Positions 10,744 to 39,553 of a stretch of 64,000 nt of DNA are shown piece after piece. A model generated the notes under the pieces. The model had not been told where the DNA came from and did not search any database. It was given only the letters and a program-made list of their open reading frames with translations. The position numbers and the translations under genes are program-made. Numbering within the stretch: position 1 is the stretch's first letter; each line of letters opens with the position of its first letter. Source of the DNA: Propionibacteriaceae bacterium (lineage in GTDB: Bacteria > Actinomycetota > Actinomycetes > Propionibacteriales > Propionibacteriaceae); contig JAISJO010000091.1 in assembly GCA_031261485.1 (NCBI GenBank), positions 1 through 64,000 of the forward strand, given 5' to 3'.

Positions 10744-11712
10744 TCAGAAGTAATACGGAAAGTCGGACCAGTCGGGGTCGCGCTTCTCCAGGAAGGAATC
10801 ACGGCCCTCTCGGGCTTCGTCGGTCATGTACGCGAGGCGCGTGGTCTCCCCGGCGAAAATCTGCTGTCCGACAAGGCCATCGTCTATGGCATTGAAGGCA
10901 TATTTCAACATCCGAATGGCCGTGGGCGACTTTCCAGCGATGAGTGACGCCCATTCCAAACCGACTGTCTCAAGCTCGCCGTGCGGCACGACCGCGTTGA
11001 CTGTGCCCATTTCGTACCCTTTGGCGCCGTCGTAGGTTTGGCCCAGGAAGAATATCTCGCGGGCGAACTTCTGTCCCACCTGACGAGCGAGGTACGCGGA
11101 ACCGAACCCTGCATCGAAGGACCCCACATCGGCGTCAGTTTGCTTGAAACGGGCGTGCTCGCGGGAGGCCAGGGTCAGGTCGCACACCACCGCGAGGGAG
11201 TGCCCGCCACCAGCCGCCCACCCGTTGACAAGGGCAATCACCGGCTTTGGCATGAATCTGATGAGACGTTGTACTTCCAGAATGTGCAGTCGGCCCAGCT
11301 TGGCGCGCTCATGTACGGATGGTTCGGCCGGTACAGTCTCGCCACTTGTCCCGGTTGCCCGCTCATGTACGGATGGTTCGGCCGGTCCGTCCTCAGTTTG
11401 GCGGTCGACGTACTCATATCCCTGCCGTCCACGTACACGCTGGTCGCCGCCGGAACAGAAGGCCCAACCGCCATCCTTGGGCGAGGGACCGTTCCCGGTG
11501 AGCAGGACACAGGCGATGTCTGGGCTCATCCGGGCGTGGTCCAAAGCGGTGTACAACTCATCCACCGTGTGGGGGCGGAAGGCATTGCGGACCTCGGGAC
11601 GGTCTATCGCCACTCGTACAGCCCGGACGTGCTTGGCGCGATGGTACGTGATGTCTGTGAAAGAAAATCCGGGAACTTCGTCCCACTCTTCGGGGTGAAA
11701 AGGTTGCTCCAT
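10744..11712 (-). CDS. menB: 1,4-dihydroxy-2-naphthoyl-CoA synthase, with an internal repeat-bearing insertion
   Basis: Crotonase fold, GGDQRVRGR...FMPKPVIALVNGWAAGGGHSL...KQTDADVGSFDAGFGSAYLARQVGQKFAREIFFLG. Confidence 0.95.
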   Translation of the reverse strand: MEQPFHPEEWDEVPGFSFTDITYHRAKHVRAVRVAIDRPEVRNAFRPHTVDELYTALDHARMSPDIACVLLTGNGPSPKDGGWAFCSGGDQRVRGRQGYEYVDRQTEDGPAEPSVHERATGTSGETVPAEPSVHERAKLGRLHILEVQRLIRFMPKPVIALVNGWAAGGGHSLAVVCDLTLASREHARFKQTDADVGSFDAGFGSAYLARQVGQKFAREIFFLGQTYDGAKGYEMGTVNAVVPHGELETVGLEWASLIAGKSPTAIRMLKYAFNAIDDGLVGQQIFAGETTRLAYMTDEAREGRDSFLEKRDPDWSDFPYYF

Positions 11713-11779
11713 GAGTTCAGGCTAGCGTGTTTGCACCTCACACCATCGGCACGCCCCGTGTTGCGACCCCTCTCCAGCC

Positions 11780-12574
11780 TCAGTCCAGACCAAGCGCCTC
11801 GATGCGGGCACGCACACGGTCGGGGTAGTTGGTGATGATCCCGTCGACTTCTTGACGCAGCATCGCGTCAATGTCCTCGACCTCGTTGACCGTCCACGCA
11901 TTGACCTCCAACAAGGAGTTATGGGCCTCGGCGATGAGGTTGTCCACTGCCTTGACGTACTCAATCGGGGGATGCAGAGCGGTGGCCCACAGTTGATGCG
12001 CATAGTTCCACGGCTCGTACAAGACGTCCTGGAAAAGCACACCCGTGGACACCAGCGACCCGACCTGGCGAATGTGCGCCAAGGTCATGTGGTTGAAGCT
12101 GGAGATCACGGTTCGATACTCCCAATCGCGGTCGTCGACGAGGTCGAGCACCTTCTCCGCGATCCCTGGATAGTCGACCACAGAGTCTTTGATTTCCACG
12201 TTGATCAGCATCGACGTGCCGGACAATAGGTCGAAGACCTCGCCCAGCGTCGGTACCTTTTCACCAGGGTATTGCTCATTGCCCAGAGAAGCGTCAAGCG
12301 TCTTGATTTGGTCCAGCGTGTGGTCTTTTACCCAACCATGCCCCGATGTCGTGCGGTCGAGAGTCTCGTCATGGATGACAATCAGTTCGCCGTCCGCGCT
12401 CAACTGCACATCCAATTCGACGCCATCAGCCAACTGATCATGGGCTAGGGAGAAAGCAGCCAATGTGTTCTCTGGTGCATAGCCACTGGCCCCCCGATGA
12501 GCCCAAATCCTTGTCATGACAATCCCCTTACTCAGGACAGCAGCCACACTGCCGCCTAACTCAGAGTACCCCAA
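11780..12574 (-). CDS. Glycerophosphodiester phosphodiesterase
   Basis: IWAHRGASGYAPENTLAAF, GVELDVQLSADGELIVIHDETLDRTTSG. Confidence 0.93.
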   Translation of the reverse strand: MGYSELGGSVAAVLSKGIVMTRIWAHRGASGYAPENTLAAFSLAHDQLADGVELDVQLSADGELIVIHDETLDRTTSGHGWVKDHTLDQIKTLDASLGNEQYPGEKVPTLGEVFDLLSGTSMLINVEIKDSVVDYPGIAEKVLDLVDDRDWEYRTVISSFNHMTLAHIRQVGSLVSTGVLFQDVLYEPWNYAHQLWATALHPPIEYVKAVDNLIAEAHNSLLEVNAWTVNEVEDIDAMLRQEVDGIITNYPDRVRARIEALGLD

Positions 12575-35491: not shown

Positions 35492-38062
35492 TCAAGACCT
35501 GCTACTGCGTCTACGAACCGCTCCCCAGATCAGAAGGACTATCCCTCCAATGAGTAGTGCTCCTGCCATACCTGAGGCTGCCCAGACATACCACCTAATA
35601 GGCTCAACCACCCGAATTGGGATCTCAAACTCGACCGCTGTCCAGTTTTCATCGAATCCGGACACCACGATGGTGTGCAATCCGGGAGAGAGGTCCGGGG
35701 GTATTGTGAATGTGAGGTTCGCCACTCCATCTTCGCCCACCAGGAACTGGCCTAGCCGCACCGGCGTTGAGTGCAGGTCCACATAGACGTAGCTCCCGAC
35801 CACCATGTCTCGCACATTCATCTGGATTTTGTCGCATGTGGCAATATCTGGACGTGATGACTCGGTGATGGTTGCGTTCTCAGAGCCCGAGAGATCCTTC
35901 AGCGTCTTCGCGGGAGAGCTGGTGCAGATTCGTTGTCTCCACACCTGTCCTGAAACATACGGCCCTGGTGCGGAGAATGCGTTCGTGAACTCCGGCGAGG
36001 ACAGGTATCCACGCAGAGCCGTCCCCTCTGCTTTGTAGCCATCAATTGTGGGATGGGCACTTTCTGGGTCAAGCGAAATCTTGTTGATCCAGGCTTGGTC
36101 TTCGGACCTACATATGGAGTGGCCAAGAGTCGCATAGTGCACAGGGTTTGCAAAGAAGATAGCGTAGCTGAGGCTACCGTCAAACCGAGCTTCGGCGGCA
36201 GCCTCGACTTCCACTCTGATAACGCCATTAAGAGTTGCTTCCAGGTCATTGAGCCTGACAACGTCGGATGCTGACAAGGCATACGTTGGTCCACCCATGC
36301 CACAACTCTGATTGCCACTTTGGGCGATCACTGGATAGGGCAAGACCACAACTGGCGCGTATTCGTTGGCCCCCTCATCAAGCCTTGCTTGTCGATACGC
36401 GGCCGTATTCGCAGCATGCCAAATTGCTCTGTAGGCCGCAGCCAGCCGCCCCGAGGCAACAGAACCATTGACAGCACCTGACTGCAGTCGGACCATGTCT
36501 TGAAATGCCTTGTAGATCGGCGATTCTCGGTCGTCTGCGCTAGGGCATTTGTTTGTCCTAAACGGATTGGGGCTAGCTTCAAATGGATTGACACAAGAAC
36601 TGATGATGTTCGCAAAACCAATGTCATTGCCTCCCAGGGTCAGAAACACAATCCGAGGGGCGGTCTCTAACTGCGCCAATTTGTCCAACTGCGCATCAGC
36701 GTCGGTGTGAGTATTGTCATCCGTTTGCCGAGTTATCAGGTTCTGAATGACTGCCCCGCTGCACGCAAGATTCTTCGCCTCATACATCGGATATTCCCCG
36801 CTATGCCAGTCTTCACCAATTTTGGGGATGAACGCATAGCTCTTGTGGGAAGTATGACACCCGTTGTCCACGATGTAGTATTCGGGAATCACTCCATCCC
36901 TCCAGTCCATGTACTCGAACGTACCCTGGCCCGACGAATATGAATCTCCCATGATGACGATCTGGTTATTTCCGTCGATGGTAATTGGTCCCCAATCATT
37001 AGGGCCGACATCGGTCCCCTGAACCATTATTGTGCCGTCGACAGGTTCGCCGTATGCTCCTTTCCCATAGGCGAAGACTCGGTAATTCAGTTGCTTAGAA
37101 CCGCTGTCCAGACCAGCCAAAGAGAGCGTCCAGGAGGCCACGAGCGTGCCGTCTGGGCTGATAGCGCCGAGGCTCTTGCGAGGAGGCACCACGGCAGGAA
37201 GAGAATCCGAGCCAGCAGTAAACGTCAATGTGACATTCACTTTTTCGATAAGGAAGGCTGCCGGGTTGTGAATCGTGGCAGTGACAGTCACATCCCCGCC
37301 CGCCACAACAGTTTGCGGGGAAGTGGTCACCGAGACATTGAGCGCCCCACTGGTCGCGTCTGCAATTTCTTCGATGAGTTCTTCCCCATCTTCAGCATCA
37401 ACATACTTCCCCTCGGTTGCAGCCGCAATACACTGCAGTTCGGTGCGACCTTTGTCAGATATCTGGAATCCGATGGTGTTGACCGTGATAGCGAAACCTT
37501 TGGCAGCCAGTTCCTTGGCAACTTCGCATGGCGTTTTCGGCGGGCTGCAATTCGATTCACCATCCGACACAAGGATAATTGATGCCCCATAGTCACCGTC
37601 AGCAATGAGTCGCTCCCCTAGAGCTTCCAATGCTTGTGCCGTGGGAGTATTGCCGTTTGCCTGCAGGTTTGTGATTGTCGCATGGAGTTTGGGTGCGTCC
37701 GCATTGTCAGCGGGAGTGACAACGTACTGTCCAGCGCCGCAATTGCCGTCGTTGGGAAAGGTCCAGACTCCCACATCGCGCAGTCCTAGACTTGTGGAGA
37801 TGGCGTCATTCATACCCTGTTTGGCAGAGTCGAGTTTGGTCAGGCCACCGCTCGCTTGCCCGTCCATCGAACTTGACAAATCGATAAGGAGAACAATTGG
37901 CGCGCCTGGGTTTCTGGGGGCCGCGACGGCAGGTGCCACTGAAAGAGAAGTTGGGATGGATGCCATCATCGCCGCAGCAAGAATGGCAGTTATCAAGGTC
38001 ATCGGTCGAAAACCTATCGACGCCAAGCAGTCAGACTGGTCGCCATGCTCTTTCCTGGACAC
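35492..38062 (-). CDS. Membrane-anchored VWA domain plus SGNH/GDSL hydrolase fusion protein
   Basis: MIDAS motif DLSSS; SGNH blocks GDSYSSG, GGNDIG and a C-terminal HPT; C-terminal TM followed by RRRSSRS. Confidence 0.85.
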   Translation of the reverse strand: MSRKEHGDQSDCLASIGFRPMTLITAILAAAMMASIPTSLSVAPAVAAPRNPGAPIVLLIDLSSSMDGQASGGLTKLDSAKQGMNDAISTSLGLRDVGVWTFPNDGNCGAGQYVVTPADNADAPKLHATITNLQANGNTPTAQALEALGERLIADGDYGASIILVSDGESNCSPPKTPCEVAKELAAKGFAITVNTIGFQISDKGRTELQCIAAATEGKYVDAEDGEELIEEIADATSGALNVSVTTSPQTVVAGGDVTVTATIHNPAAFLIEKVNVTLTFTAGSDSLPAVVPPRKSLGAISPDGTLVASWTLSLAGLDSGSKQLNYRVFAYGKGAYGEPVDGTIMVQGTDVGPNDWGPITIDGNNQIVIMGDSYSSGQGTFEYMDWRDGVIPEYYIVDNGCHTSHKSYAFIPKIGEDWHSGEYPMYEAKNLACSGAVIQNLITRQTDDNTHTDADAQLDKLAQLETAPRIVFLTLGGNDIGFANIISSCVNPFEASPNPFRTNKCPSADDRESPIYKAFQDMVRLQSGAVNGSVASGRLAAAYRAIWHAANTAAYRQARLDEGANEYAPVVVLPYPVIAQSGNQSCGMGGPTYALSASDVVRLNDLEATLNGVIRVEVEAAAEARFDGSLSYAIFFANPVHYATLGHSICRSEDQAWINKISLDPESAHPTIDGYKAEGTALRGYLSSPEFTNAFSAPGPYVSGQVWRQRICTSSPAKTLKDLSGSENATITESSRPDIATCDKIQMNVRDMVVGSYVYVDLHSTPVRLGQFLVGEDGVANLTFTIPPDLSPGLHTIVVSGFDENWTAVEFEIPIRVVEPIRWYVWAASGMAGALLIGGIVLLIWGAVRRRSSRS

Positions 38063-38077: not shown

Positions 38078-39481
38078 TCAGTTCTGCAGGAGTTCGTCCA
38101 TGGCAGTCGCGGAGCCAACGACTCGAGCGTCACCCAGACCGAACATTGTTGTGAGGTTAGCTCCATTCGGAGTGTTGCGTAGCTGAACCCAGATTTCAAA
38201 GCGATTGACACCCGTTACGTCTAGATCAACGTCCACAGGCGCATTGTAGATTGCCTCGAATTCGCCCACTGTCACGCCATCTGCCTTGAATATCACATGG
38301 ACTGCTCCCCCGGTATCTGTCACGTCATCGGGAATGCCGAATACCGCCTGGAAACGGTTCGCTTTCACCCCCAACAAGTATGTCCACGCGGCCCAATCAT
38401 CTGGCTTTCTTGAATCGAACTGGACACGCCCGGTGACCGAGTTTGTGAAACTTTGACCATGCAAGAGCAAATCTTTGGAAACGCTCATTGACCCTCCGAC
38501 TGACTTCAGCTGGCCCACATAAATCCCAGTTCCTGATTCGGCAACGGTGACTGTCACTTCACTGGGAAGAGGTTTGCCGACATCCGGATCGACGGAAAGG
38601 ATTGAACCTGGCGCTGCCAATGGGTCGTACGCATAGACGACACGGACATTTGCACCTAGGTCGCGCACGCGCGTCGTGAGGTCATTGAGCGTGAGCCCTG
38701 ATGGATCTGGGACGGTCGCCGGAATGGATAAAGTGAGTGCGATTGTTCCTACGTTCGTCACTCCCGATGATGGAGACTGCGCCACAACAACATTGGCTTC
38801 ACCTGCAAACGGTTCCTTGGTAAGAATCACTTTCGTGGGATCCCAGCCTTGATCAGCGATGACCTGCAGTGCCTCATCCTTGCTCAAACCACGCACGTCG
38901 GGCATACGCAGGGTCGTGGGCTCGTCGGGGTGGAGGGTGACTGTGATGACCTCTGGCGTAATATCCGATCCCGATTGAAGAGACAAGTCATAGTTGCGTG
39001 TAATCCAGCCTGCAACAAATCCCCCCACCACGAGTGCCAGGAGCAAGAGACCAATCCCAGCAACGAAAAGTAGTCTGTGACGTTTCTTGGACTCTCCTGA
39101 AGGAGTTGAGTGACGTGTGAACCGAGCTTTCGATGGTTTGGATGCCGACTGTGTCGCAGCATCCACCTGTGGCTCGTCCGGGGCGCTGGCACTGCTCGAC
39201 ATGTCTGTTGGCGGCTTTGACTCGCCTTCCTCTGCAGAGTTGGCTCCCTCTGGGGCGGACACGTTCTGAGGCTCCGTCTGAGATGGATCGTCAGCAGATG
39301 TCGGATGGGTTTGGGTGTTCTGCGCCTCGGCCGCCGCAATCCAGTCAATTAGCCCCTGATAGGCGGCAGGATGAGAAGCAACCGCAGAGCGAAGATCGGG
39401 AAATTGCTGAGCAATCTGGGCCAGTGTTGTCGGTGTCGTCGCAGAGTCTGCGAGAGCTTCTTGAGCGGCAATCTCGTCCAT
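38078..39481 (-). CDS. LRV-like N-terminal domain, TM, two PASTA-like repeats, NPCBM-like C-terminal domain
   Basis: ALADSATTPTTLAQIAQQFPDLRSAVASHPAAYQGLIDW; TM LLFVAGIGLLLLALVVGGFVAGW; PDVRGLSKDEALQVIADQGW and PDPSGLTLNDLTTRVRDLG. Confidence 0.78.
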   Translation of the reverse strand: MDEIAAQEALADSATTPTTLAQIAQQFPDLRSAVASHPAAYQGLIDWIAAAEAQNTQTHPTSADDPSQTEPQNVSAPEGANSAEEGESKPPTDMSSSASAPDEPQVDAATQSASKPSKARFTRHSTPSGESKKRHRLLFVAGIGLLLLALVVGGFVAGWITRNYDLSLQSGSDITPEVITVTLHPDEPTTLRMPDVRGLSKDEALQVIADQGWDPTKVILTKEPFAGEANVVVAQSPSSGVTNVGTIALTLSIPATVPDPSGLTLNDLTTRVRDLGANVRVVYAYDPLAAPGSILSVDPDVGKPLPSEVTVTVAESGTGIYVGQLKSVGGSMSVSKDLLLHGQSFTNSVTGRVQFDSRKPDDWAAWTYLLGVKANRFQAVFGIPDDVTDTGGAVHVIFKADGVTVGEFEAIYNAPVDVDLDVTGVNRFEIWVQLRNTPNGANLTTMFGLGDARVVGSATAMDELLQN

Positions 39482-39553
39482 GATGATTCTCGTTATCGTC
39501 CCGTGGCCGCATGGCGGCATCAACCTGTTGCGAGTCACACTATCAGTTGCGCT

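Follow-up and report, generated by a model that had tools for sequence, protein, structure and literature searches.

The SGNH lipases and phospholipases A1 (PLA1) of Streptomyces, among them the S. rimosus lipase SrL (5mal), SaPLA1 (4hyq) and SsEst (1esc), are secreted enzymes with one domain and a length of about 230-300 residues. Replacement of Ser10, Asn82 or His216 of SrL by alanine abolishes activity, and mutation of Gly54 does not (PMC10779480). PASTA kinases of the PknB/PrkC/StkP type carry a PASTA ectodomain on a single transmembrane (TM) helix, and known CBM51/NPCBM modules are joined to a glycoside hydrolase or peptidase (GH95 and ZmpB of C. perfringens). Actinobacteria, including Streptomyces and Corynebacterium, encode membrane proteins with a single VWA domain, a signal peptide and a C-terminal TM helix (L002-L017, L101-L115). 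VWA parts, in some cases with PASTA domains, also occur in the mobile and patchily distributed MoxR-vWA ternary conflict systems (PMC7159879). A description of a PASTA-NPCBM protein paired with a VWA-SGNH protein was not found in the open-licence papers covered, and annotated plasmid records give only the generic names 'VWA domain-containing' and 'PASTA domain-containing'.

Such a pair was located in a 64,000-nucleotide stretch of a Propionibacteriaceae contig (JAISJO010000091.1, positions 1 to 64,000; hereafter the window). It comprises a partner gene (cassette gene 1; 38078..39538) and, downstream of it, a VWA-SGNH fusion gene (cassette gene 2; 35492..38062); all window coordinates given here are on the minus strand. 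The fusion gene is a single intact ORF of 856 codons with homologues elsewhere, and its GTG start is preceded by a Shine-Dalgarno-like AAAGGA motif. The original prediction had placed a signal-like N-terminus, a VWA domain with an intact MIDAS, a beta-sandwich-like linker, an SGNH hydrolase and a C-terminal TM helix in this one ORF, and each of these parts was recovered.

The fused protein was modelled with AlphaFold2 from a 27-row alignment (mean pLDDT 76.6). Its signal peptide region (residues 1-48; 37919..38062) has a hydrophobic core at 21-48 ending in AVAAP, with a modelled helix at 20-34. This is followed by the VWA domain (residues ~53-240; 37343..37906), which is alpha/beta in the model, and by a CARDB/Big-like beta-sandwich linker (residues 241-350; 37013..37342), predicted all-beta over 239-348 and matched by Pfam CARDB in two of the 27 homologues. 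The C-terminal half consists of the alpha/beta SGNH hydrolase domain (residues ~364-690; 35993..36973), an Ig-like stalk of beta strands (residues ~740-820; 35603..35845) that the original prediction had not included, and a TM helix evident in both sequence and model (824-848, modelled as 824-854; 35519..35593), which precedes a basic RRRSSRS tail. No LPXTG sortase signal was found before the TM helix in the protein sequence. Sortase anchoring, as in VWA adhesins and pilins, was therefore ruled out, and the protein is TM-anchored. Separately, stalk-TM segments like this one end other proteins of the genus at their C-termini, and residues ~750-853 are similar to stretches of some very long open frames in genomes of the same genus (L019, L022, L024, L028 and others; the longest has 6,123 codons); the segment is apparently a shared surface-anchor module.

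Residues 56-232 were matched by Pfam VWA_2 (36.8 bits) and VWA (29.2 bits), both above the curated cut-offs. The MIDAS is complete (DxSxS, T, D): in the DLSSS motif (residues 61-65; 37868..37882) D61, S63 and S65 are kept in all 27 homologues, as is D167 (37562-37564), and T141 (37640-37642) is kept in 26. Four cysteines (C108, C172, C179 and C211) are likewise invariant across the 27. With a fold match and a complete MIDAS, the protein is assigned to the VWA domain family at the level of sequence. The single-VWA membrane proteins mentioned above are ~35-40% identical to it in this domain and share its signal peptide and C-terminal TM helix, but lack the SGNH domain and the PASTA-NPCBM neighbour.

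For the SGNH part, Lipase_GDSL_2 stayed below threshold with the single window protein (22.9 bits against a cut-off of 32.9). Among 27 full or partial homologues, however, Lipase_GDSL_2 matched 25 and Lipase_GDSL 18 at E<=1e-3, so the domain search that had been proposed as a check supported an SGNH fold. The family profile matched the solved structures 4hyq (phospholipase A1; 1.7e-34), 5mal (S. rimosus lipase; 1.9e-28) and 1esc (5.7e-12), and a Foldseek search with the modelled domain returned 5mal (TMt 0.73). Alignment with 5mal placed S374, G436, N479 and H670 on Ser10, Gly54, Asn82 and His216 of SrL. S374, the nucleophile in block I (GDSYSSG; 36929..36949), G436, and the oxyanion residue N479 in block III (GGND; 36623..36634) are conserved in 27/27 homologues; the catalytic histidine of block V, H670 (E-x-x-H-P; 36053..36055), is conserved in all 25 that cover it. 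Three residues before this histidine, classical triads have Asp and SrL a dispensable Asn, whereas the VWA-SGNH family has Glu (23 of the 25). The SGNH part thus sits in the Streptomyces lipase/PLA1 group of the SGNH/GDSL superfamily, with the same fold, block I/II/III/V residues and conserved cysteines. It differs from those enzymes in lying between a VWA-linker and a stalk-TM segment, and in its Glu for Asn at the His-3 position. Its esterase function is putative. Related SGNH domains were also seen inside other large same-genus proteins (L032:4975-12240, L033:3033-7406, L034:1208-5443), in the company of PKD/cadherin-like, Golvesin_C or BACON/SLH domains, and a same-genus genome (G006; L112/L031) encodes an SGNH-stalk-TM protein close to a contig end that has neither VWA domain nor partner.

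About 35 loci spread over Actinomycetota show the same domain order, with protein identities of ~30%. Four other Propionibacteriaceae genomes carry it (28-31% identity across the aligned proteins), with Arachnia propionica and Tessaracoccus rhinocerotis among these relatives and one copy (G069) frame-split near its end. A scan of GTDB contigs, in which a single-protein query gave no match and an alignment-based profile did, added ~30 loci in Actinomyces, Schaalia, Buchananella, Gordonia, Williamsia, Pseudonocardia, Nesterenkonia, Leucobacter, Mycolicibacterium, Blastococcus, Agreia, Pseudarthrobacter, Actinotalea and others. Three Rhodococcus plasmids, including complete plasmids, also carry the cassette. 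A full-length protein was present in 4 of 395 sampled genomes of the class, the window genome counted. The architecture had been called unusual; it is rare (~1% of the sampled class genomes), yet it is a conserved and recurrent family and no one-off. Two long versions from Bifidobacteriaceae MAGs (L098:2797-7590, L099:2339-7801) have hundreds to more than 1,000 extra residues between start and VWA domain, and in both the partner gene still directly precedes the fused gene.

At 30 of the 31 loci testable in one scan, in which L096 was truncated, the partner gene directly precedes the fused gene; the exception is an Acidimicrobiaceae locus (L109). The partner gene was also immediately upstream in the four Propionibacteriaceae genomes, in the three Rhodococcus plasmids and in three class-level genomes (L162, L164 and L165, with L162 perhaps a duplicate record of L087). 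Spacing was between -4 and +5 bp in 29 of 30 pairs, with a 4-bp stop/start overlap in 21; fused-gene starts were picked by closeness to the partner stop, so this overlap is partly a choice. In the window the gap is 15 bp. No partner was found beside VWA-only or SGNH-only relatives (0/31 loci), and all-against-all clustering of the flanks gave no further widely shared gene family, which rules out a larger operon. Among 198 Propionibacteriaceae genomes, six encode the full-length partner, and these are exactly the genomes with the fused gene (the G093 copy being frame-split). The two genes are inherited together: the distance matrices of their proteins were correlated (Mantel r 0.69, p 1e-4). 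Promoter and terminator signals showed no excess over shuffles. Given the conserved adjacency, the partner's absence beside relatives and the lack of any other conserved neighbour, the functional unit is a two-gene cassette, and the single-gene view of the original prediction, which had missed the nearly constant upstream gene, was set aside. Conserved adjacency does not prove a physical complex.

The partner (486 residues) has a cytoplasmic N-terminus with an LRV_2 match (residues 25-74; 39317..39466; Pfam 6.4e-15), one TM helix (~155-180; 38999..39076) of probable N-in/C-out topology, two PASTA domains (211-335; 38534..38908; 7.5e-16) and an NPCBM/CBM51 domain (340-475; 38114..38521; 1.4e-5), the last scoring 25.6 bits against a Pfam cut-off of 23.9. 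PASTA was found in all of 21 homologues, NPCBM in 19 and LRV_2 in two. Foldseek searches with the partner model returned PrkC/PknB PASTA ectodomains and the CBM51 structure 2vmg (TMt 0.70). By Pfam and predicted fold the partner is thus a member of the CBM51/NPCBM family with putative sugar binding; the CBM51 and PASTA specificities considered here are transferred from distant relatives. Two NPCBM cysteines that are near-invariant in other partners are missing from the window partner, and its sugar site may therefore differ. Fold and Pfam family are shared with the C. perfringens modules, but in the partner CBM51 is joined to PASTA on a membrane protein. A single TM helix and a PASTA ectodomain are common to the partner and the PASTA kinases; unlike these, the partner has a cytoplasmic part that is LRV_2 or disordered, and the domain search found no kinase domain. 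A kinase-PASTA-NPCBM protein is encoded in G093 (L160:3447-5336, plus strand), which suggests that the partner could descend from a PASTA kinase by loss of the kinase domain. G067 encodes a lone PASTA-NPCBM lipoprotein.

Several observations point to horizontal transfer. The cassette is rare, and GC3 of both its genes is 0.56-0.58, compared with 0.61-0.76 in 15 other window ORFs. The interval between the CCA-tRNA nucleotidyltransferase and eamA genes is short and cassette-free in four same-genus relatives; the two intervals inspected each held one small membrane-protein-like ORF. The closest copy is in a Bifidobacteriaceae MAG, which we take to be from a termite gut: in trees of both proteins the window copy grouped with it (100/100 and 99/99; L072 pairing), away from other Propionibacteriaceae. 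That both proteins group in this way supports co-transfer of the two genes, although that MAG could be mis-binned. Elsewhere, GC3 was low against the flanks in the Arachnia copy and two Buchananella copies, and most other copies matched their flanks. No tRNA was found near the cassette site, and flanking repeats were limited to weak, chance-like pairs. Carriage by phage was rejected, the single match being VWA-only.

The predicted topology (VWA-SGNH protein type I, partner N-in/C-out) would put the PASTA, CBM51, VWA and SGNH domains on the outer face. With both ectodomains then directed toward the cell wall, the two products could form one envelope complex. From domain knowledge, PASTA would dock this complex on peptidoglycan or its precursors and CBM51 would bind a wall glycan of the galactose/GlcNAc type. 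Through its MIDAS, the VWA domain may contact the partner or a substrate carrier in a metal-dependent way. The SGNH domain (Ser374 and His670, with Gly436 and Asn479 as oxyanion residues) would cleave the acyl ester bond of an envelope glycan or lipid near the membrane. Binding and deacylation of a surface glycan or lipid by the fused protein, as first proposed, remains plausible and now has a firmer footing, since the SGNH domain groups with lipases/PLA1 and since PASTA and CBM51 domains are encoded next door. The reading we lean towards is that of a conserved, horizontally transferred cassette whose products form an esterase complex docked in the envelope on peptidoglycan and wall glycan. 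A fuller version is offered tentatively: a kinase-free PASTA-CBM51 receptor may position or gate a VWA-regulated, membrane-tethered acyl-ester hydrolase where the wall is being made or has been damaged, as a mobile two-protein complex spread between families by horizontal transfer and possibly serving wall modification or inter-microbial conflict.

The cassette might instead serve external substrates as a surface adhesin-esterase, with VWA and CBM51 holding acylated glycans (plant, fungal, mucin or termite-gut) whose deacylation feeds the cell. Adhesins commonly contain VWA domains, the Clostridium and Akkermansia CBM51 modules returned by Foldseek act on host glycans, and the nearest relative is in the presumed termite-gut MAG. 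This explanation is nonetheless unlikely: the family is also present in soil Rhodococcus, Gordonia, Mycolicibacterium and Actinomyces, genes for sugar uptake or glycosidases are not conserved around the cassette, and the PASTA domains argue for the bacterium's own wall as the target.

Somewhat less likely still is a conflict or defence module, in which a mobile envelope phospholipase complex would sense wall perturbation by phage or a competitor and act on the membrane. A PLA1-like catalytic domain, patchy transferred distribution, plasmid copies and the foreign composition of some copies are in keeping with such a role, as are TIR-domain genes near the Tessaracoccus copy (L082:8244-9776) and one Rhodococcus plasmid copy (L223:1840-4470, 11031-11822). 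The neighbours, however, are often metabolic and no defence gene is common to the loci. PADLOC gave no match for the VWA-SGNH protein and only a weak PD-T4-6 match, confined to the PASTA part, for the partner; membership of known anti-phage systems was rejected. The MoxR-vWA systems have VWA, in some cases PASTA, and mobile patchy spread in common with the cassette, in which by contrast the VWA domain is extracellular and fused to SGNH. No MoxR AAA+ gene or third component was a conserved neighbour at the cassette loci.

SGNH domains are non-enzymatic in some cases, and both folds could serve for binding only, without catalysis; this is very improbable when Ser374, Gly436, Asn479 and His670 are invariant wherever covered at a mean pairwise SGNH identity of ~32%. 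That two genes were joined by chance or by an artefact can be dismissed because the same fusion recurs in some 35 loci, in independent genomes and complete plasmids, even though two copies are frame-split (L070 within SGNH/stalk and L110 within the linker, by decay or sequencing error).

An odd single-gene fusion has thus become a defined two-gene unit with testable residues, and cultured hosts of the cassette are available (e.g. Rhodococcus, Actinomyces, Arachnia, Gordonia and Mycolicibacterium). If the envelope-complex model is true, recognition of peptidoglycan by PASTA and of glycan by CBM51 would be tied directly to an ester hydrolase, with no kinase signalling, and the cassette would represent a novel mode of positioning esterases in the envelope.
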